Shown piece after piece: positions 34,229 to 45,739 of a DNA stretch of 64,000 nt. Location of the stretch: NCBI GenBank assembly GCA_031082225.1, contig JAVHLG010000013.1, positions 1 through 64,000 on the forward strand, written 5' to 3'. Below the pieces are notes generated by a model. It was not told the DNA's origin. It made no database searches and saw only the letters and a list, made by a program, of their open reading frames with translations. A program made the position numbers and the translations under genes. Each line of letters opens with the position of its first letter. Positions within the stretch are counted from its first letter, which is position 1. Origin of the DNA: Desulfovibrionaceae bacterium (lineage in GTDB: Bacteria > Desulfobacterota > Desulfovibrionia > Desulfovibrionales > Desulfovibrionaceae).

Positions 34229-35227
34229 ATGGGGGAGAAGGTTGCGCTGGTGGGCGTGGAGCAGTCCGAGGCGGGAAGAAAGCTTGTGGATTTCATCAAA
34301 CGCCGGGCCGGGAAAGACGTCCCCACCTCCGCCGTCATGCGCTGGATCCGCACCGGACAGGTGCGGTTGGACGGCCGCCGCGCCGGGCCCTATGACCGGG
34401 TGGCGGGCGGACAGACGGTCCGCATCCCGCCGTTTCGCCCGGGGGAGAAAGGGACCGGGGAACACGGCATGGCGCATGGCCCGGACGCCTTGCCGTTGCC
34501 GCCGGTGGTCTTCGAGGGCGACGGCCTCATGGTCCTGGCCAAGCCCGCCGGGCTCCCCGTACAACCCGGCACGGGCCATGCCGATTCCGTCCAGACCCGT
34601 CTGGCCGCCGCCTATTCCGATGCGGCCTTCATCCCGGCTCCGGTCCACCGCCTGGACAAGGACACCACCGGACTGCTTGTCGTCGCCGCCACCCACCACG
34701 CCGCCCGGGCGGCCTCCGAGGCCTTTCGCACGGCGGGCGTAAAAAAGGACTATCTGGCCTGGGTGCACGGGACATGGCGGCTGTGCGCCCTGGGGGAGAC
34801 CATCCCCCTGTGCGACCGGCTGGCCAAGACCGGCCCGGCCGGACGCGAAAAGGTGCACTCTGGGCAGGCGGCCGGGCATGAGGCCCTGGCCCTGGCCACG
34901 CCCCTTGTGGCGACCCCTGAGCGGTCGCTTGTGCGGCTGCGGCTTGTGACCGGCAAGACCCACCAGCTTCGGGTCCAACTGGCCTCCCGGGGACACCCGA
35001 TCCTGGGCGACGCCAAATACGGCCCGCCCGGCCAGGGGCATGGCGGCGGTCTGTGCCTGCACTGCTGGCGCATGGCCCTTTTGGGCATGTCCTTCGAATT
35101 GCCGCCGCCCTGGGATGGTGAACTGGCCGTGCCGCCCGAGGCGCTTACGACCCTCGCGAAAATGACGGGGGATGGCGGAGAAATCGGCGATCCTGACCCT
35201 ACAACAAAATCCGGTAGTCGATTTTGA
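34229..35227 (+). CDS. RluA-family pseudouridine synthase
   Basis: A 332-residue enzyme that converts uridine to pseudouridine in rRNA or tRNA. An N-terminal S4-like RNA-binding domain (about 10-75; KLVDFIKRRAGKDVPTSAVM, GQVRLDGRRAG) precedes the catalytic domain with PVHRLDKDTTGLLVVA carrying the active-site aspartate. LRLVTGKTHQLRVQLASRGH and GDAKYG are also typical. RluC-like versus RluD-like specificity is unclear. The ATG at 34229 follows GGGAG; a GTG at 34211 is possible. The 3' end overlaps the convergent antitoxin gene by 29 bases. A second RluA-type enzyme is fused to CoaE at 45736-47484. Confidence 0.9.
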   Translation: MGEKVALVGVEQSEAGRKLVDFIKRRAGKDVPTSAVMRWIRTGQVRLDGRRAGPYDRVAGGQTVRIPPFRPGEKGTGEHGMAHGPDALPLPPVVFEGDGLMVLAKPAGLPVQPGTGHADSVQTRLAAAYSDAAFIPAPVHRLDKDTTGLLVVAATHHAARAASEAFRTAGVKKDYLAWVHGTWRLCALGETIPLCDRLAKTGPAGREKVHSGQAAGHEALALATPLVATPERSLVRLRLVTGKTHQLRVQLASRGHPILGDAKYGPPGQGHGGGLCLHCWRMALLGMSFELPPPWDGELAVPPEALTTLAKMTGDGGEIGDPDPTTKSGSRF

Positions 35228-35555
35228 GAACCTCGGCCAACCGTCTGGCGCGCTCCTTGCCGATGGGCATACGGCCGTTTTCCATGGACGAGATGTGTCC
35301 CTGGGGGATGCCCGTCAGCGCGGCCAGGGCCTTCTGGGTCAGGCCCTCCTTGCCCCTGGCCCCGCGCAGGGCCACGGCCCACTCCGCACCCCCCCGGTAC
35401 TGCGGAAACAGTTCCCGCCAGGGGACGGGCTCGGAGACCTCGGCCAGGCCGAGATCCTGCGCCATCCGGGCCAGCTTGCGCATCTTCCCGGCCGGGCCGG
35501 AAAACCGCAGTTCCATGATCGCTTCAGTAGGGGGCTTTTTCGTGGGTTCCAACAT
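35199..35555 (-). CDS. XRE-family antitoxin (HigA-like)
   Basis: A 118-residue protein with a C-terminal helix-turn-helix (LTQKALAALTGIPQGHISSM, about 73-92) and a variable N-terminal part that would cover the toxin. It follows the toxin gene, the order seen in higBA-type modules. GGAGGTGACCT directly precedes the ATG at 35555, inside the toxin's last codons, giving a 32-base overlap. An ATG at 35516, seven bases after the toxin stop, is the alternative start. It is expected to bind the toxin and repress the operon. Confidence 0.8.
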   Translation of the reverse strand: MLEPTKKPPTEAIMELRFSGPAGKMRKLARMAQDLGLAEVSEPVPWRELFPQYRGGAEWAVALRGARGKEGLTQKALAALTGIPQGHISSMENGRMPIGKERARRLAEVLKIDYRILL

Positions 35556-35802
35556 AGGTCACCTCCACCAGCCGGACCGTTCCGTCCGCCTCTTCCCATA
35601 CGGCCACATACGTGGGACGTCCTTTCTTGATGTGGCAATGATGCCGCCTTGGCCCAAGCTTGCCGTAGTTCGGCCAGTTCCCCCGGATGGGTCCGGCCTG
35701 CTCCATCTCCAAAAGCAGGGCGAACAGCCGTTCCCGAACCCTTTCGGGCAGCCTCTCCACCTGCCTGCGAACCCCTTTGGCGGCCGTCACCGACCAGTTC
35801 AT
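35524..35802 (-). CDS. RelE/HigB-family toxin
   Basis: A 92-residue basic protein. It begins MNWSVTAAKGVRRQVERLPE, then has a helical hairpin (RVRERLFALLLEMEQAGPIR), HHCHIKKGRPTYVAVWEEAD and VRLVEVTYVGTHEKAPY. This is the RelE-superfold plan of ribosome-dependent mRNA interferases, with the His/Lys/Arg-rich strand as the likely active surface. The antitoxin gene overlaps its 3' end. Together they form a complete type II module, unlike the toxin remnant at 15493. Confidence 0.8.
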   Translation of the reverse strand: MNWSVTAAKGVRRQVERLPERVRERLFALLLEMEQAGPIRGNWPNYGKLGPRRHHCHIKKGRPTYVAVWEEADGTVRLVEVTYVGTHEKAPY

Positions 35803-36859: not shown

Positions 36860-39247
36860 ATGGAACACACCCTTCGCCGCCGCATCACCGTGACCGGACA
36901 GGTCCAGGGCGTCGGTTTTCGACCCTTCATCTACCGCCTGGCCCTGGAATGGGGGCTTGGCGGCGAGGTGCGAAACACCCCCGAGGGCGTGGTCATCGAG
37001 ATTCAGGGCCCCCCCGCCGCCGTGGACGGCTTCGGCCGCGATCTCACGGGAAAACTCCCCCCCCTGGCCCGCATCCTGACCATCGACGGGCAGGACATGG
37101 CCGCCGTTTTGGGCCAACCCGCCTTCGCCATCCGCGAAAGCGCCCCGGGTGTCGGCCATAACGTGCTCATAAGCCCGGACGTGGCCACCTGCCCGGCCTG
37201 CCTGGCGGACATGGCCGACCCGGCCAACCGTCGCCACGGCTATCCCTTCACCAACTGCACCGACTGCGGCCCGCGCTACACCATCACCCGCTCCATCCCC
37301 TACGACCGGGCCTCCACGTCCATGGCCTGCTTTCCCCTGTGCCCGGACTGCGCGGCCGAATACGCCGATCCCCTGGACCGCCGCTTCCACGCCCAGCCCA
37401 ACGCCTGCCCGGTCTGCGGCCCCCAGGTCCGGCTCACGGACGCCTCGGGCGCGACCCTGGCCGAGGGCGACCCCGCCCTGGCCCGGCTTGCCCGGGAACT
37501 GGCCGCCGGGCGCATGGCGGCCATCAAGGGCCTGGGCGGATTCCATCTGGCCTGCGACGCCGCCAGCGACGCGGCCGTGGGGGAACTGCGCCGCCGCAAG
37601 AACCGGCCTGCCAAGCCGTTTGCGGTCATGGTTCCGGACCTGGCCGCCGTCAGGCGGCTGGCCGCGCCCGGGGCCGTCACCGCCCAGGCGGCATCCCTTC
37701 TGACCGGGAACGTCCGTCCCATCGTGCTTTTGCCCACCCGACCGGACGGCCCCCTGTCCGCCCTGATCGGCCCGGACACTTTGGAGACCGGGGTCATGCT
37801 GCCCTATACGCCCCTGCATCATGCGCTTTTCGGGCATCTGGCCCGCGAGATCGGACCTGACCGCCTCCCGGCCCTGGTCATGACCTCGGGCAACGCCGGG
37901 GGCGACCCCATCTGCCTGGGCAACCGCGAGGCCTTGCGGCGTCTGTCCGGCATCGCGGACCTCTTTTTGCTGCACAACCGGGACATCCTGGTGCGCACGG
38001 ACGATTCCGTGGTCCGGCCGATCCCCCCCGGGCCCTTGGCCGAGACCTCCCCCGGCCTCCGGGAGGAGGCCCGGGCCGCGCCCCCCGTCCAATTCCTGCG
38101 CCGGGCCCGGGGCTACGTCCCCTCGCCCGTCCGGCTGCCGGTGACCGGCCCCTGCGTGCTGGGAACCGGCCCGCATCTGAAATGCACCCTGTGCCTGACC
38201 AAGGCCGACCAGGCCTTCGTCAGCCAGCACATCGGGGACATGGAGAACCTCGCCACCCTGGCCTTTTACCGGGAGATGCTGACCCACCTCCAGGACATCC
38301 TGCGCGTGACCCCGACCCGGGTGGTCTGCGACCTGCACCCGGATTACCTGACCACCCGGCTGGCCGAGGAGGAACTGGGGATTCCGGTCATCCGGTTGCA
38401 GCACCACTACGCCCACATCCATGCCGTGCTGGCCGAATGCGGCCACGGCCCGGACGCCGGGCCGGTGATCGGCCTGGCCCTGGACGGCACGGGCTACGGC
38501 GAGGGCGGCGTCCTGTGGGGCGGGGAATGCCTGTATGTGGACCCGGCGGGCCCGGTCCACGAACGCCTGGGGCACCTCTCCCCCATGCGCCTGCCCGGAG
38601 GCGAGGCGGCCATCCGCCATCCCTGGCGCATCGCCATGGGCCTGCTCGCCGACGTGGGCCTGGACGCCGCCCGGTTCCGGCCGCCCTGGCTGCCCGCCGA
38701 GGAACGCGCGGCGGCCCTGGTTTGGCAGATGCTGGAAAAAAACTGCAACTGCCCCCTCTCCACGAGCCTGGGCAGGCTTTTCGACGCGGTGAGCGCCCTG
38801 TGCGGGGCCTGCCTGCATGTGGACCACGAGGGCCAGGCGGCCATCCGGCTGGAGACGATCCAGGACATGGCCGAGACCACGGGCTATGACTGCCCGGTGC
38901 AGGCCGGGGCCTCCCCGGCCGTGCTCGACTCCCGGACGCTTTTCGCCTGCGCGGCCGCGGATCTGGCCCGGGGCGTTTCCCCCGGGGCGGTCAGCCGCCG
39001 TTTCCACCTGGGACTCCTGGACGGACTGACGGAACTGGCCGCGACCATGGCCGCCTGGCGCGGCACGCCCCGGGTGGCCTTAAGCGGCGGCTGCCTGCTC
39101 AACCGGACCCTCTCCCGGGAATTGCCGGACAGGCTGCGCGCGCGCGGGCTTATGCCCATGACCCATCGGCTGCTGCCCCCAGGGGATGGCTGCATCAGCC
39201 TGGGGCAGGCCGCCTATGGCCTGGCGGTCATGGCGGCATCGGTCTGA
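36860..39247 (+). CDS. hypF: Carbamoyltransferase HypF (NiFe-hydrogenase maturation)
   Basis: HypF makes the carbamoyl group passed to HypE as precursor of the cyanide ligands of NiFe hydrogenases. Order in the 795 residues: acylphosphatase-like domain (about 8-95; GQVQGVGFRPFIYRLA), two C4 zinc fingers (about 110-185; CPACLADM ... CTDCGPRYT and CPLCPDCA ... CPVCGP), a YrdC domain (about 200-380; GGFHLACDA, RPAKPFAVMV), and a Kae1-like carbamoyltransferase domain with HHYAHIHAVLAECG and LALDGTGYGEGG. The true start is the ATG at 36860 although the frame is open from 35687. No other hyp genes lie here. It follows the DUF362 gene. Confidence 0.96.
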   Translation: MEHTLRRRITVTGQVQGVGFRPFIYRLALEWGLGGEVRNTPEGVVIEIQGPPAAVDGFGRDLTGKLPPLARILTIDGQDMAAVLGQPAFAIRESAPGVGHNVLISPDVATCPACLADMADPANRRHGYPFTNCTDCGPRYTITRSIPYDRASTSMACFPLCPDCAAEYADPLDRRFHAQPNACPVCGPQVRLTDASGATLAEGDPALARLARELAAGRMAAIKGLGGFHLACDAASDAAVGELRRRKNRPAKPFAVMVPDLAAVRRLAAPGAVTAQAASLLTGNVRPIVLLPTRPDGPLSALIGPDTLETGVMLPYTPLHHALFGHLAREIGPDRLPALVMTSGNAGGDPICLGNREALRRLSGIADLFLLHNRDILVRTDDSVVRPIPPGPLAETSPGLREEARAAPPVQFLRRARGYVPSPVRLPVTGPCVLGTGPHLKCTLCLTKADQAFVSQHIGDMENLATLAFYREMLTHLQDILRVTPTRVVCDLHPDYLTTRLAEEELGIPVIRLQHHYAHIHAVLAECGHGPDAGPVIGLALDGTGYGEGGVLWGGECLYVDPAGPVHERLGHLSPMRLPGGEAAIRHPWRIAMGLLADVGLDAARFRPPWLPAEERAAALVWQMLEKNCNCPLSTSLGRLFDAVSALCGACLHVDHEGQAAIRLETIQDMAETTGYDCPVQAGASPAVLDSRTLFACAAADLARGVSPGAVSRRFHLGLLDGLTELAATMAAWRGTPRVALSGGCLLNRTLSRELPDRLRARGLMPMTHRLLPPGDGCISLGQAAYGLAVMAASV

Positions 39248-39762
39248 GGCGAAAATCCATACTAAAAAACTCTCTTTTTTTTTGTTGACGATTTCCCGGA
39301 TTCACCATAGGGGAGCACCTTCTTCCCGATCCGGCGCACGATGAGCCCGGAACATGGACGCGGGTCAGCCAGGAATGGAAAAATCATTTTTTTTTCAAAA
39401 TGATCCCCATTCATAGCCCTTGTCGCCGAAAACAGGAAACACTATCGACCCAGGCCTGATGCGGTTGCACGGCGCAGGGACGTGAAAAACAGTATATGCC
39501 CCATGGCTCTTCCGATTCCCGATGCTGAAAATTTATTTTGGCAAGCGCGCAATGACTTTGCAACTCTGCTTGACGAAATGACTTTTTTTGGTTCAACATC
39601 GATTTGACGCGTTTTTCTGCGGATCATGTCTACCCTGTATCCTAACGATCCGATACTGGCTCACATATCCTCGCTGGCAAGCCGTTATGAAGATTTTGCA
39701 ATCGTTTTGTGCAACACAACCCCATGTCACTTAACCTATAACAGGAAAAGCGGGAAACAATC
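39248..39762. other. AT-rich regulatory region before the CI-like repressor
   Basis: No gene is seen in this 515-base region. An AT hairpin ATCATTTT/AAAATGAT lies at 39383-39404. TTGACG at 39604 may be a -35 box, with only weak -10 candidates behind it. Composition is far richer in AT than the neighbours, as also before the related regulator at 44579. Confidence 0.45.
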
Positions 39763-40464
39763 ATGACGTATCAAGACTCCGATTCCGGATACAATACATT
39801 CGAAGAGGCTTTTGAGCGGATCAAAAAGTCCACCGGCCTTCGCACCCAGGTGGAGGTGGCCAAACTTCTGGACATCCGCCAGTCGAGCATTTCCGACGCC
39901 AAGCGCCGCAAGTCCATCCCGGACGGATGGCTCATCAAGCTCTACCAGCTCTACGGGCTCAATCCCAACTGGATCCTCGACGGCGAGCAGCCCCAGTTCC
40001 TGGGCGACCGCAAGGGCGGGGCCCTGGCGGTCATGGAGTCCTCGGAGGGCTACGGCGCCCGCAAGCCCAAGCACCACAGCGTGCCCGTCTGCGCCATGAC
40101 CCTGCCCGAGGATGCCGAGGGCGGCTTTGTGGAGACGCCGGTGGAGACCATCACCATCGCCGACAAGTTTTACCGTCCGTCCCTTTTGGTGGTGCGCATG
40201 GACGAGGAGCACATGGAGCCCCTGATCCGCCGGGGGGCCTATGTGGGCATCGACAAGGACCGCAAGACCATCCGTTCCGGCGGCATCTACGCCCTGGATC
40301 TGCCCGTGGAGGGCATGGTCGTCAAACGCGTCAACTACGACGCGGAAAACGCCAAGCTGATCCTGCGCTCGGAGAATCCGGCCCACGAGGACCAGCAGAT
40401 TCCGGCCGAAGACGGGGCTTCCCGGGTGATCGGCCGGGTGGCCTGGGTGCTTCAGGAACTCTAA
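39763..40464 (+). CDS. CI-like repressor: HTH plus S24 domain lacking the catalytic serine
   Basis: A 233-residue regulator. Residues about 12-70 are a phage CI-type helix-turn-helix (TQVEVAKLLDIRQSSISDAK, then SIPDGWLIKLYQLYGLNPNW). The C-terminal half (about 105-233) is a LexA/CI S24-like fold with MEPLIRRGAYVGIDKDRKTI and VEGMVVKRV. The active-site position of the usual GDSMEP motif reads EEHMEP, so the catalytic serine is replaced by histidine, while the lysine is kept; self-cleavage should not occur. It probably controls nearby genes through dimerisation or ligand binding. A strong terminator follows, then the flx-type operon. A paralogue without HTH lies at 44579-45001. Confidence 0.88.
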   Translation: MTYQDSDSGYNTFEEAFERIKKSTGLRTQVEVAKLLDIRQSSISDAKRRKSIPDGWLIKLYQLYGLNPNWILDGEQPQFLGDRKGGALAVMESSEGYGARKPKHHSVPVCAMTLPEDAEGGFVETPVETITIADKFYRPSLLVVRMDEEHMEPLIRRGAYVGIDKDRKTIRSGGIYALDLPVEGMVVKRVNYDAENAKLILRSENPAHEDQQIPAEDGASRVIGRVAWVLQEL

Positions 40465-40488
40465 GCCGGAGCCGTCATCGACTCCTTC

Positions 40489-40519
40489 GGGCCGCGCCAT
40501 CCCGCGCGGCCCTTTTTTT
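40489..40519 (+). terminator. Strong intrinsic terminator after the repressor gene
   Basis: GGGCCGCGC (40489-40497) pairs perfectly with GCGCGGCCC (40504-40512) around CATCCC and is followed by seven T residues. It separates the repressor transcript from the downstream flx operon. Confidence 0.9.
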
Positions 40520-40685
40520 CGCCTGCCGCATGCCACGGACCAGGGAAAAAGGCGCTGACCGGGTGTACAAGCAGGATCGGTCGTGCTAGGATGGCAGACC
40601 TCAGTGATCGGATCCCGTCCCGGTGTGCAGCCATGCCTTCCATCGGCCGCCCCGGAACGGACACGGCGGGAGTAGAAGACGCTTC

Positions 40686-41129
40686 ATGGCCAGCCCCAAA
40701 ACCTACCGGCCCAACATCGTGGCCTTTTTCTGTCGATGGTGTTCCTACGGGGCGGCCGATCTGGCCGGTTCTCTGCGCCTGCGCTATCCCGTGGACATCC
40801 GCATCGTCCGCGTGCCCTGCTCGGGCAGCATCAGCCCCCAGTACCTGCTCTACGCCCTTCTGCAGGGGGCGGACGGCGTCTGGGTCTCGGGATGCCATCC
40901 CGGCGACTGTCATTACCGCATCGGCAACATGCACGCCCGACGCCGCCTGACCCTGTTCCACAACCTGCTGGACTATGTAGGCATTGAGCGCGCCCGCCTG
41001 CTCTTCACCTGGATTGCGGCCTCCGAGGCGCACAAGCTGCAACGGGAGGCCGAGGCCTTCGTGACGGCCGTCGCCGCCCTGGGACCGGCCAGACGCCTGG
41101 TCAAGAGTCTGGAGACCTGCATTTTATGA
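40686..41129 (+). CDS. MvhD-like iron-sulfur subunit (FlxD)
   Basis: A 147-residue protein of the MvhD/hydrogenase iron-sulfur subunit family, which passes electrons between a flavin/Fe-S module and HdrA in methanogens and sulfate reducers. The conserved cysteines are in IVAFFCRWCSYGAADLAG, RVPCSGSISPQYL and GVWVSGCHPGDCHYRIGNMH, ligands of a [2Fe-2S] cluster. ATG 40686 is taken because the upstream frame is not protein-like. The stop overlaps the next start (ATGA). It is the first gene of the operon; in D. vulgaris the MvhD-type gene is grouped with flxABC and hdrABC. No hdr genes are in this window. Confidence 0.85.
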   Translation: MASPKTYRPNIVAFFCRWCSYGAADLAGSLRLRYPVDIRIVRVPCSGSISPQYLLYALLQGADGVWVSGCHPGDCHYRIGNMHARRRLTLFHNLLDYVGIERARLLFTWIAASEAHKLQREAEAFVTAVAALGPARRLVKSLETCIL

Positions 41130-42076
41130 ACGCCTACGCCCGCCGTATCCGGGAAATCGCCCGCAGGCTGCTCAGCGAAAAGGCCGTGGACGCGGTGGCA
41201 GGCTACCGGGCCGGAACCGTGCCCATGCGCGCCCGTCCCTTTGTCGCCCGCACCCCGGCCGAGGCCGGGGAACTGACCTGGACGGGATTTTGCGTGGGCA
41301 ATCTGGCCAAGCTGGCCATCGGCCTCCCGGGCCGGGTGGCGGTATGCGCCCAGGGCTGCATCAGCCGCAACCTGGTGGGGATTGTGCGGGAAAACCGTCT
41401 GGCGCGGGAAAACCTGACGGTCATCGGCGTGCCCTGCCTGGGCATGCTCGACGCCAGAAAGATCCTGGCCAAGGTGGGCGGACGCATGGTCACGGGAGTT
41501 CGCGAGGAGGGTGACGCTGTCACCGCCACGGGCGCGGACTTCGAGGAGACCTTCGCCCGGGGCGACGTCAAGCGCGACACCTGTCTCACCTGCCGACATC
41601 GCAACCCCGTGCTTGTTGACGAGGTCGTGGCCGACCCCGTGCCCGAGACCGGCGGCGGCGACGGCGACCGGATCATCGAACTGTGGGAACGCAAAAAACC
41701 CGATGCCCGCTTCGAACTGTTCACCCGGACCTTCCGCGACTGTATCCGCTGTTATGCCTGCCGGGACGTCTGTCCCCTGTGCCACTGCGCCACCTGCTTC
41801 GTGGACCGCTCCCGGCCCCAGTGGCTGGGCAAGACCCAGGACGAGCCCGACGTTTTGACCTACCACCTGCTGCGGGCCTTCCACTGCGCCGGGCGCTGCA
41901 CGGACTGCGGGGCCTGCGAATCGGCCTGCCCCCTGGGCATCCCCATGCGGCGGCTCACGGCCAAACTCGAATCCGACGCCAGGCGGCTTTTTGGTCACGA
42001 GGCGTCCCTGTCCCTGGACGCCAAGCCCGCCCTGGCCGTCTTTTCCCCTGACGACCCGGACGAGGTCTTTTCCTGA
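41126..42076 (+). CDS. 4Fe-4S dicluster oxidoreductase subunit (FlxC-like)
   Basis: A 316-residue cytosolic protein. The N-terminal ~190 residues hold CAQGCISRN, VIGVPCLGML and DTCLTCRHRNP, like the N-terminal part of coenzyme F420 hydrogenase beta/FlxC-type proteins. Two ferredoxin-like motifs follow: CIRCYACRDVCPLCHCATC (about 205-223) and CTDCGACESACP (about 259-270). It should wire electrons between the flavin subunit and the MvhD-like subunit. It overlaps the flxD-like gene by four bases and is 11 bases from the next gene. Confidence 0.78.
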   Translation: MNAYARRIREIARRLLSEKAVDAVAGYRAGTVPMRARPFVARTPAEAGELTWTGFCVGNLAKLAIGLPGRVAVCAQGCISRNLVGIVRENRLARENLTVIGVPCLGMLDARKILAKVGGRMVTGVREEGDAVTATGADFEETFARGDVKRDTCLTCRHRNPVLVDEVVADPVPETGGGDGDRIIELWERKKPDARFELFTRTFRDCIRCYACRDVCPLCHCATCFVDRSRPQWLGKTQDEPDVLTYHLLRAFHCAGRCTDCGACESACPLGIPMRRLTAKLESDARRLFGHEASLSLDAKPALAVFSPDDPDEVFS

Positions 42077-42087
42077 CGGGAGCCGCC

Positions 42088-43206
42088 ATGTACGACGCCA
42101 TGATCTTTTCCCGCCTGGACCTGCCCCGGGTCATCGCCGCCTGGAGCGCGGGCCGGGCGGTCTATGTTCCGACAACCGCCGGGGGGAACACCACCCTCGC
42201 CCCCTTCGATCCGGAGCGCGGCCTGTCCCTGGACTACGGCAACACCACCCTGTCGCCCAAGGCGTTTTTGTTTCCCCAGACCGAATGTCTGCTGCGTTTC
42301 GCCACCTGCGGGCAGGACGCCGCCCTGGCCGTGGCCGAACCCCAGGGCACGCAAAAACGGTTGCTCTTCGGCATCCGCCCCTGCGACGCGGCGGCCTTCG
42401 CCCTCCTGGACGCGGTTTTTTGCCAGGACGCACACAGCACAGATCCGTCCTGGGTCTCCCGCCGGGAGCGCACGATCCTGGTGGGCCTGGGGTGCAACAC
42501 CCCGGACGCCGCCTGTTTCTGCACCGCCATGGGCTCGGGCCCCCACCATCCCCGGGGCCTGGACATCCTGGCCGCCGACCTTGGCGACGAGGTGCTGCTT
42601 ACGCCGGTCACGGACCGGGGCCGGGCCCTGCTTGCCGAGGCCGCATCCATCGTCCCCGGAATCCCGGCCAGGGGCGAACGCGGCGGGACGGCGCTTGGCC
42701 GGGCCGCGACCCTGCGCATCAACGCCGAGGCGGTCATGGCCAGATCCCCCTTTGCCGGTCTGACCCTTGAGGCCGTGGCCCGGCGCAGTCAGCGCACGGT
42801 GCACGCCCTGGGCATCTGGCCCGCCATCGCCGAAACCTGCCTGAACTGCGGGGTGTGCACGTTTGCCTGCCCCACCTGCCACTGTTTCGACATCCAGGAC
42901 GAGACCAAGGGGGCCTCGGGACGGCGGGTGCGCAACTGGGACACCTGCATGTCCTGGCTTTTTACGGCCCATGCCTCGGGGCACAACCCGCGCCCCACCA
43001 AGGTGGAGCGGGTGCGGCAACGTTTCATGCACAAATTCAAATATATGCCCATGAACCTTGGGGGACGGCCGGGATGCGTGGGCTGCGGCCGTTGCGTACG
43101 CCAGTGTCCGGTGAACATCGACATCCGCGAGGTGCTGCGGACCCTGGACATGGCCTGTCGGGCCGCGCCGCCCTCGGGAGCGCCCCGGGCCGAGGCGGAC
43201 TCATGA
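42088..43206 (+). CDS. 4Fe-4S dicluster subunit (FlxB/AsrA/HydB-like)
   Basis: A 372-residue iron-sulfur protein resembling the beta subunits of sulfhydrogenases and anaerobic sulfite reductase subunit A. The N-terminal domain contains LLFGIRPCDAAAFALLDAVF, which is characteristic of that family. Two C-terminal [4Fe-4S] motifs are CLNCGVCTFACPTCHC (about 251-266) and CVGCGRCVRQCP (about 331-342). GGGAG precedes the ATG. It is coupled to the flavin subunit by a four-base overlap. It would accept electrons from the FAD/NAD(P)H subunit encoded next. Confidence 0.83.
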   Translation: MYDAMIFSRLDLPRVIAAWSAGRAVYVPTTAGGNTTLAPFDPERGLSLDYGNTTLSPKAFLFPQTECLLRFATCGQDAALAVAEPQGTQKRLLFGIRPCDAAAFALLDAVFCQDAHSTDPSWVSRRERTILVGLGCNTPDAACFCTAMGSGPHHPRGLDILAADLGDEVLLTPVTDRGRALLAEAASIVPGIPARGERGGTALGRAATLRINAEAVMARSPFAGLTLEAVARRSQRTVHALGIWPAIAETCLNCGVCTFACPTCHCFDIQDETKGASGRRVRNWDTCMSWLFTAHASGHNPRPTKVERVRQRFMHKFKYMPMNLGGRPGCVGCGRCVRQCPVNIDIREVLRTLDMACRAAPPSGAPRAEADS

Positions 43207-44048
43207 ACGAAAAAAATCCCTATCTGCCCTATCCCGTGCGTCTGGTCGAGGCCCGGTTCGACACCCCGGACACAAGCCTGCGCACCCTGCGGGTGGCCTT
43301 CGAAGATCCGGCCCATGCGGCCGGTTTCGCCTACCGGCCGGGACAGTTCGCGGAACTGTCCGTGACCGGTCGCGGCGAAGCGCCCATCGGCATCGCCTCC
43401 AGCCCCACGGAAGGCGACGAACTGCTCTTCACCGTAAGCCGGATGGGCGTGGTCACCACGGCCCTGCACGAATTGTCGCCCGGCGACCGCCTGGGGGTGC
43501 GCGGCCCCCTGGGCAACGGCTATCCCCTGGCGGACCTTGCCGGGAAGGACATCGTGGTGGTGGCCGGGGGCTATGCCGTGACCACCCTGCGCAGCGCCAT
43601 GATCTGGCTGCTCGACCCGGCCAACCGTGCCCGCTACGGGCGCATCACCTTCGTCTACGGGGCCCGGTCGCCCGAGCTGTTGCTCTATCCGGAGACCTGG
43701 CGGCAGTGGATGGGGCGATCCGACGTGGACTGCCGGGTGACCATCGACAACGCCTGCGAGGGCTGGGACTGCCTGGTGGGTTTCGTGCCCCGGGTGCTCA
43801 AGGAACTGGCCCCCTCCCCGGAGGGCGCGGCGGCCCTGGTGTGCGGACCGCCGGCCATGATCCGCTTCAGCCTGCCGGTCTTCGAGGATCTGGGCTGGCA
43901 ACCGGAGCAGATATTCATGAGCCTGGAAAACCGCATGAAATGCGGCATCGGCATCTGCGGCCGGTGCAACGTGGGCAACCGCTACGTGTGCAAGCACGGC
44001 CCGGTGTTTTCCAAGGCCGAACTGGACCGCCTGCCTGCGGAATACTGA
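43203..44048 (+). CDS. FAD/NAD(P)-binding reductase subunit (FlxA/AsrB/HydG-like)
   Basis: A 281-residue ferredoxin-NADP reductase-type flavoprotein. FAD binding: YRPGQFAELSVTG and PIGIASSPTEGD; NAD(P)-binding: VVVAGGYAVTTLRSAMIWL and LVCGPPAMIRFSL. The C-terminal MKCGIGICGRCNVGNRYVCK supplies four cysteines for a [2Fe-2S] cluster. It should oxidise NAD(P)H and feed the Fe-S subunits encoded upstream. The ATG overlaps the preceding stop. It is the last gene of a D-C-B-A ordered operon; the known Desulfovibrio locus also carries hdrABC, absent here. Confidence 0.88.
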   Translation: MNEKNPYLPYPVRLVEARFDTPDTSLRTLRVAFEDPAHAAGFAYRPGQFAELSVTGRGEAPIGIASSPTEGDELLFTVSRMGVVTTALHELSPGDRLGVRGPLGNGYPLADLAGKDIVVVAGGYAVTTLRSAMIWLLDPANRARYGRITFVYGARSPELLLYPETWRQWMGRSDVDCRVTIDNACEGWDCLVGFVPRVLKELAPSPEGAAALVCGPPAMIRFSLPVFEDLGWQPEQIFMSLENRMKCGIGICGRCNVGNRYVCKHGPVFSKAELDRLPAEY

Positions 44049-44578
44049 TTCTCCGGCGTCGGCCGCCTCACGCCCGGCGCATATCCTCGCCATTTCGGCC
44101 CGGTCCCCTTCGCTTGGGCGATGCCGCGTTTCTTCGCCATCCCGATCATCCCCGGTCCCGGTACGGGGCGGCCATGCGCCGCGCCGAGCGCCGCCTTCCC
44201 GGCCAGCCAGCAAGCCGCAGATCCAACATCCTGATATGTTGTTATTTTTCTGAAACGATTCCGCACCTCCCGCCTTCGTCGGACCTCCCTGTCCACCCGT
44301 GTGTCACAAACAGCCCCTTGCTTCATTCGTATATTCTATTCTTTCCATGCCTATACCGCTTCACGCCGTCTATTTTGGTTCTTGCATCCTATTATCGGTT
44401 GTTCTATCAATATTTCTATATCTAAATATACATTTATAATTGCAATTTTTCGATATTGAGATTAGGTAAGACGAACATGCAGGCCGCGTGAAACACCCTG
44501 CCGCCCCCTGACGGCAAGTCCGCCCCATACCTATTTTAAGCCCGGAAGCCCCGCCGGGTCCGCAAGGAGTCATGCCCC
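44049..44578. other. Intergenic region with strongly AT-rich core
   Basis: No gene is seen. From about 44300 to 44470 the sequence is very AT-rich, with ATATTTCTATATCTAAATAT and TTGCAATTTTTCGATATTGA, suitable for a promoter and a DNA-bending or nucleoid-protein site. It leads into the HTH-less regulator gene. No terminator with a T-run is evident after the flx operon. Confidence 0.45.
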
Positions 44579-45001
44579 ATGCCGCCGTCCCGAAACCGAG
44601 AAGAGCCCGGCGTCTCGCGCATCCTTCCCGTCTGCCTGGCGGGCGTCGAGTCCGGATGCGTGCTGGACGTCATCTGCTCCGAGGACATGGCCATCCCCGA
44701 ACCCTTTTGGGACAAGGATCTATTGGTGGTGCGCATGGACGGCGACGGGATGGCCCCGGTCATCCGCCGGGGGGCCTATGTGGGCCTGGACCGCACCCGC
44801 AAGGGCATCCGGTCCGGCTGGATGTATGGGGTCATGGTCCCGGTGGAGGGGCTGGTGATCAAGCGGGCCATGGTGGATCTGGAGACCCGGCGGGTGATCC
44901 TGGCCGACGGACAGGACAAGCAGCCCCCCTACTGCTTCGCGCCCGAGGAGTTCCGGCGTCGCGTGGTGGGCCGGGTGGCCTGGGTCTTCCAGGAATTCTG
45001 A
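44579..45001 (+). CDS. HTH-less S24-type domain protein, paralogue of the CI-like repressor
   Basis: A 140-residue protein matching only the C-terminal half of the regulator at 39763-40464: LLVVRMD, then MAPVIRRGAYVGLDRTRKGI, PVEGLVIKRA and VVGRVAWVFQEF align along the whole length. The catalytic-serine position reads DGDGMAP, so glycine replaces serine; the lysine is kept. Without a DNA-binding domain and without protease residues it most likely works by pairing with its paralogue, for example as an anti-repressor or ligand sensor; this is inference. AAGGAGT lies 8 bases before the ATG. It converges on the rhomboid gene with a 3-base gap. Confidence 0.85.
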   Translation: MPPSRNREEPGVSRILPVCLAGVESGCVLDVICSEDMAIPEPFWDKDLLVVRMDGDGMAPVIRRGAYVGLDRTRKGIRSGWMYGVMVPVEGLVIKRAMVDLETRRVILADGQDKQPPYCFAPEEFRRRVVGRVAWVFQEF

Positions 45002-45004
45002 TCC

Positions 45005-45739
45005 TCAGACTGGCCGATCCGGATCCTCGTAGCGCCCCTCGTCGGGCCGCCAGCAGTAGCGGCAGCGCCTTGGCCCGACAACCCGCATGATGAGGTATCC
45101 GGCCACAAAGCCGCCCACATGGGCGAAAAAGGCCACCGAGGCGCTCTTCCCGGCGTCCAGGGAGTTGGAGAGCCCGGAAAACAGTTGGATGAAGAACCAG
45201 ATGCCCAGAAACGCCGTGGCCGGAAGCTCCGTGATAAACGGAATAAAGACGATGGGGATCAGCGTCACCACCCGGGCGTGGGGGAAAAGCCGGAAATAGG
45301 CCCCCATGACCCCGGCCACGGCCCCCGAGGCCCCGATGACCGGCACCGTCGACGCCGGATGGAAAAGGATGTGGGTGCACAGGGCGGCCACCCCGCAGAC
45401 CAGATAGAAAACCACAAACCAGGCATGCCCCAGCACGTCCTCCACGTTGTCCGCAAAGACCCAGAACACCCACATGTTAAGCAGAAAATGCAGCCAGCCG
45501 CCGTGCAAAAACATGTAGGTGACGAAGCTCTCAAGCCCTCCCTCAGGAAATCCGGCCTGGGCCGCAAAGGACGGATTGGTGAACCGGGCCGGGACCACCC
45601 CGTAGAGGTGGAAAAAGACGTCCAGAATCCGGTCCGGCAGCGACAATTCATAGAAAAAAAGCAGCGTGTTCAGGACGATGATGGTCCAGGTGACCAGGGG
45701 GGCGCGCTCCCGGGGAATGTTGTCGCGAAGCGGGATCAT
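45005..45739 (-). CDS. Rhomboid-family intramembrane serine protease
   Basis: A 244-residue protein with about seven helices. The catalytic serine is in VIGASGAVAGVMGAYF (GASG) and the histidine in AFFAHVGGFVAGYL. LHGGWLHFLLNMWVFWVFAD is the conserved L1/TM2 region. The C-terminal tail has a CRYC pair that could bind metal. It overlaps the stop of the upstream RluD-CoaE gene by four bases (ATGA) and ends the minus-strand operon kinase-uspA-rluD/coaE-rhomboid. Confidence 0.92.
   Translation of the reverse strand: MIPLRDNIPRERAPLVTWTIIVLNTLLFFYELSLPDRILDVFFHLYGVVPARFTNPSFAAQAGFPEGGLESFVTYMFLHGGWLHFLLNMWVFWVFADNVEDVLGHAWFVVFYLVCGVAALCTHILFHPASTVPVIGASGAVAGVMGAYFRLFPHARVVTLIPIVFIPFITELPATAFLGIWFFIQLFSGLSNSLDAGKSASVAFFAHVGGFVAGYLIMRVVGPRRCRYCWRPDEGRYEDPDRPV

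Follow-up and report, generated by a model that had tools for sequence, protein, structure and literature searches.

The flxDCBA operon described here lies between two regulators of the S24 type that are members of an older regulator family, and the best reading makes it a passenger there. The upstream regulator, S24-A, belongs to an old Desulfovibrionaceae family of non-phage repressors with a CI/LexA fold, most of which no longer cleave themselves. We consider it probable that S24-A is a non-cleaving housekeeping repressor resembling phage 186 CI, that the downstream S24-B, which lacks a helix-turn-helix (HTH), is a possible mixed-dimer partner, and that flx is a passenger cassette with its own promoter.

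Layout of the hypF-rhomboid locus

The window, by which we mean the whole 64,000-nucleotide stretch of DNA analysed, comes from genome G000; G069 and G041 are the other two of the three genomes that represent the genus. Coordinates are those of the whole window unless another locus is named, and its main features are as follows.

36860..39247, + strand: hypF, left neighbour of S24-A; conserved in the genus, Solidesulfovibrio and Fundidesulfovibrio
39557..39577, + strand: S24-A promoter element TTTGCAACTCNNCTTGACGAA; conserved, with a -35-like TTGACG
39763..40464, + strand: S24-A, CI/LexA-like repressor (PF07022 HTH and PF00717 S24); Ser changed to His150, Lys188 kept
40489..40519, + strand: intrinsic terminator after S24-A, 9 G-C pairs and 7 T (stem-loop 40489-40512)
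40564..40592, + strand: flx promoter-like site TGTACA-17-TAGGAT, spotted by eye with 8/12 consensus matches; conserved in G069
40686..41129, + strand: flxD, MvhD/FlpD-like
41126..42076, + strand: flxC, 4Fe-4S protein
42088..43206, + strand: flxB, 4Fe-4S protein, sulfhydrogenase beta-like
43203..44048, + strand: flxA, FAD/NAD oxidoreductase, sulfhydrogenase gamma-like
44579..45001, + strand: S24-B, S24 paralogue without an HTH; Gly57 in place of Ser, Lys95 kept
45005..45739, - strand: rhomboid protease gene, to the right of the S24 array; a conserved neighbour

All four flx subunits are present in D-C-B-A order (40686-44048), with profile matches to FlpD/MvhD, 4Fe-4S and sulfhydrogenase beta/gamma-type proteins, and position 40686 is most likely the start of flxD. 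The original prediction placed S24 regulators on both sides of flxDCBA, and the open reading frames, strands and coordinates bear this out, as does the same order in G069; since the arrangement recurs in this second species, it is not due to chance. The word 'immediately' used for this flanking needs refining: the left gap measures 221 bp and contains a strong intrinsic terminator, and the right gap measures 530 bp. Further upstream, a small HTH_3 protein and an ORF that looks RelE-like by eye form a toxin-antitoxin-like pair (35199-35802, - strand), which is conserved in position across the three species, at 81-84% identity.

Catalytic state and fold of S24-A and S24-B

S24-A matches the Pfam families Peptidase_S24 (PF00717, E 2e-12) and Phage_CI_repr (PF07022, E 3e-5) and the PHROG transcriptional repressor family phrog_4 (E 1e-29). 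S24-B matches PF00717 alone, just above the cut-off (E 4e-5), and no HTH remnant was seen upstream of it in the three forward frames. The description of a CI-like repressor with an HTH-less paralogue is therefore correct. By alignment, the position of the catalytic serine is taken by His150 in S24-A (EEHMEP) and by Gly57 in S24-B (DGDGMAP), again as predicted, while the catalytic lysine is kept in both (K188 and K95, respectively). Judging from the change to His150, S24-A should be unable to cleave itself, in line with the earlier expectation, and no Ala-Gly or Cys-Gly cleavage site was seen by eye in its linker (residues 80-125). S24-B retains the S24 core and the C-terminal GRVAWVFQEF strand. 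A contig search with S24-B as query gave no match.

The AlphaFold model of S24-A (pLDDT 86.6) finds its best full-length Foldseek matches in phage 186 CI and LexA, and also matches the UmuD' fold. The model of S24-B, built from 14 sequences, has a pLDDT of 40, too low to be informative.

The S24 pair encloses different genes in different species

In G069 the gene order is that of the window, including S24-A, flxDCBA and S24-B. G041 also carries both S24 genes (88% identity for S24-A and 58% for S24-B) within the same flanks, namely the relBE/xre pair, DUF362, hypF, the rhomboid gene and rluD/coaE, and between the two S24 genes it has a YheO-type regulator, an NhaC-type antiporter, MmgE/PrpD and RidA. 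This yheO-nhaC-prpD-ridA cassette (L063 7993-11926) has 55% GC against 67% around it, and the flx genes of G041 are found ~230 kb from the S24 pair, in a canonical adh-hdrA-flx operon. The S24-A/S24-B pair is thus fixed between hypF and rhomboid in the genus and the genes that it encloses vary by species, which argues that flx arrived as a cassette and came to lie between two S24 genes. His150 is present in all three species, also in G041 where flx is missing from the locus, so the change from Ser to His is not tied to flx.

The G041 cassette, occupying the position of flx between the same S24 genes, marks this interval as a possible insertion hot spot. That the interval is a landing site for foreign cassettes, with the S24 genes persisting through a history of their own, is a reading to which we give nearly even weight: two unrelated cassettes are found in the same place among three species, one of them of clearly different GC, and in Solidesulfovibrio the hypF-rhomboid interval holds two to four adjacent S24 genes and no insert. 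However, the GC of flx is host-like and the genus is represented by three genomes only. The landing-site reading is compatible with a housekeeping repressor next to a passenger cassette, and both may hold.

A repressor family conserved across Desulfovibrionaceae

Of the 149 sampled Desulfovibrionaceae genomes, 145 carry relatives of S24-A, and the contigs matched in the S24-A alignment scan belong to Desulfovibrio, Nitratidesulfovibrio, Pseudodesulfovibrio, Humidesulfovibrio, Fundidesulfovibrio, Solidesulfovibrio and others; outside the Desulfovibrionaceae only weak relatives were found. Among 99 S24-bearing loci, the neighbours include hflK/hflC (53), panB (37), hypF (19) and flx (2), and 78 further loci with organism names, drawn partly from the same genomes as the 99, have hflC in 47 cases and flx in none. 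S24-A does not mark a prophage immunity region, as its family sits beside the chromosomal genes hypF, hflKC, panB and rhomboid in many genera. The commonest neighbours, hflK-hflC and panB, lie on opposite sides of the regulator gene, and the order hflK-hflC-[S24 repressor]-panB is widespread in Desulfovibrionaceae.

The HTH residues QSSISDAK do not vary among 54 sequences, whose overall identity to S24-A falls as low as 31%. The catalytic positions vary widely. In an alignment of 134 sequences, the residue at the Ser position is S in 46, G in 40, A in 16, N in 13, D in 10, H in 7, T in 1 and C in 1, and that at the Lys position is K in 66 and R in 67; both Ser and Lys are kept in 23 of the 134, some of which may still cleave. 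On the tree, at least 22 changes of the Ser state and at least 14 of the Lys state are needed, and the loss of Ser or Lys is family-wide and recurrent. Such a range of Ser, Gly, Ala, Asn, Asp and His at the cleavage site of one family amounts to a natural experiment in how an SOS-type repressor gains independence from RecA.

A literature search found no published study of an S24 regulator in Desulfovibrio. A near-universal regulator with an invariant DNA-reading helix is a gap in the regulatory map of the best-studied sulfate reducers.

Some S24 regulators also occur as divergently transcribed pairs (L072 8613-10335, L073 8150-9819, L098 4016-5750 and L099 6412-8147); in these, one partner resembles S24-A in having His at the Ser position, yet belongs to a different subfamily.

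HTH-less S24 neighbours and the role of S24-B

HTH-less S24 genes are not confined to the genus. Solidesulfovibrio has HTH-less genes encoding ~122-164 aa and, besides these, longer S24 genes whose N-terminal part has ceased to match any HTH model. An identity of S24-B with the HTH-less third gene of Solidesulfovibrio was rejected, as the clades do not join (AU p 0.001), and an origin of S24-B by duplication of S24-A within the genus was not rejected (AU p 0.39). Since S24-B stands apart from the Solidesulfovibrio genes, the HTH was lost beside S24-A more than once. Repeated HTH-less or HTH-degenerate S24 neighbours agree with partner control in general, and their recurrence is the best hint of a useful partner that cannot bind DNA, with relics of tandem duplication as another possible source. 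The combination of family-wide loss of self-cleavage and repeated HTH-less neighbours is what we consider worth following.

What would S24-B do? Because it keeps the dimer-forming domain without DNA binding, titration of S24-A through mixed dimers would be its most likely role, if it has any. It may instead be a relic, left by duplication of an S24 gene, that drifts without a partner role after loss of the HTH. The dN/dS of S24-B is 0.41-0.45, which indicates weaker selection than the 0.06-0.10 of S24-A (strong selection), and relative to dS it evolves ~7 times faster than S24-A in the comparison of G000 with G069, which a decaying gene would fit too. Its Pfam score is weak, and its orthologues are confined to the genus, at 70% and 58% identity. 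Nonetheless, the open frame is retained in all three species, dN/dS stays below 1 with a conserved core, the upstream region is conserved in G069, and HTH-less neighbours arose independently elsewhere, and we regard a mere relic as unlikely. A cleavage-free hetero-dimer switch might operate throughout the Desulfovibrionaceae, in which a near-universal chromosomal CI-like regulator that lost self-cleavage repeatedly is joined by repeatedly evolved, DNA-binding-dead sisters built on the SOS/phage repressor fold; we put this forward as a tentative idea.

Taking S24-A as a non-cleaving housekeeping repressor, the following mechanism can be proposed. S24-A would act as a stable dimeric repressor that recognizes one operator throughout the family and regulates itself along with other targets. 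By analogy with the action of Tum on 186 CI, it may be released by a protein partner or a ligand on the S24 domain, and release would not proceed via RecA-stimulated cleavage. S24-B, if active, would supply a dimer-forming domain devoid of DNA binding. The flx genes would be transcribed from their own promoter, as suggested by the upstream sequence.

Transcription signals and the regulation of flx

The terminator stem-loop after S24-A persists in G069 with an altered sequence, and the flx promoter-like site lies ~50 bp past the terminator; it is a weak pair that the consensus scan missed (threshold 9/12). Taken together, the terminator and the conserved promoter-like site before flxD suggest that flx is probably a separate transcription unit. 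The TTTGCAACTCNNCTTGACGAA element has no second match in the window and is unique to S24-A in this genome, and no motif common to the regions upstream of S24-A, flxD and S24-B rose above the shuffled level.

An operator search upstream of 127 S24 genes (exact palindromes, k-mers and partial EM) returned only -35/-10-like words. TGCAA-N5-TTGCA and TGCAA-N7-TTGCA, seen near S24-A and between divergent S24 pairs, were rejected as operators, as they occur at chance frequency in the window, and genome-wide TGCAA-N7-TTGCA is no commoner than its control. These upstream, window and genome-wide motif searches identified no target gene or operator of S24-A. Upstream of S24-B, the stretch 44200-44460 is AT-rich (44% GC against 65% for the window), and its upstream blocks are conserved in part among the species of the genus, those conserved in G069 being TAATTGCAATT and CGATATT.

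The original prediction went further and suggested ligand- or partner-controlled regulation of the operon, for example with release of the repressor through heterodimers. As a dedicated flx switch, S24-A would repress flxDCBA and S24-B would relieve the repression via heterodimers, here and in G069. This could draw on the bracketing retained in two species, on the S24 core, lysine and C-terminal strand that S24-B keeps, and on the promoter-like site of flxD as a target, yet we find it improbable, as flx adjoins a gene of the S24-A family in two of the 99 fetched loci (and none of the 78 named ones) and is absent from all others, the G041 pair with the same His150 encloses unrelated genes, a conserved promoter-like site of its own precedes flx, after a terminator, the three upstream regions share no motif above shuffled sequence, and the TTTGCAACTCNNCTTGACGAA element is confined to S24-A in this genome. 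Synteny in relatives, chosen beforehand as the refuting test, likewise places the regulators mostly apart from flx, at ~230 kb in G041. The case of G041, a sister species in which this pair has unrelated genes between its members, calls for caution in inferring regulation from a single neighbourhood.

Relation to known systems

Phage 186 CI, which is switched off by the antirepressor Tum (PMC7708051; PMC3121763), has the nearest full-length fold to S24-A and shares its HTH family PF07022. It is a repressor inactivated by a partner, and release of S24-A by a partner may be envisaged by analogy. In contrast to 186 CI, S24-A is chromosomal and conserved across a bacterial family, the two share ~17% identity in the fold alignment, and no Tum-like gene was noticed beside S24-A.

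The LexA of Synechocystis PCC 6803, in which Ser is replaced by Asp, is non-cleavable and thought to serve non-SOS functions (PMC3091678). Like S24-A it is an S24 repressor without the catalytic serine, and Asp is also found at this position in the S24-A of Solidesulfovibrio. However, its DNA-binding domain is of the LexA type whereas that of S24-A is of the CI type, and in the family described here the loss occurred many times. Compared with the self-cleaving LexA, CI and UmuD proteins (MEROPS S24), both S24-A and S24-B have the fold domain and the lysine without the catalytic serine. UmuD retains the Ser/Lys dyad and cleaves itself. It resembles S24-B in being an S24 domain without an HTH, but S24-B has Gly at the Ser position and no umuC among its neighbours.

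For flx, clusters of the adh-hdrA-flx type are known from D. vulgaris and S. fructosivorans (PMC10084766). In content and order, flxDCBA in the window equals the operon that G069 and G041 carry next to adh and an HdrA-like gene, and agrees with FlxABCD-HdrABC of Desulfovibrio vulgaris; unlike these, the window copy has no adjoining hdrABC or adh, and its FlxC is just 56-60% identical to the canonical copies. By search, the G000 genome lacks the canonical adh-hdrA-flx operon of G069 and G041, and the window copy is its sole close FlxC/FlxB. An HdrA-like gene of ~1000 codons is found in all three genomes (G000:C60:16345-19371, G069:C1:599502-602528 and G041:C1:2161075-2164086) and contains a single in-frame TGA in each, which makes it a candidate selenoprotein gene.
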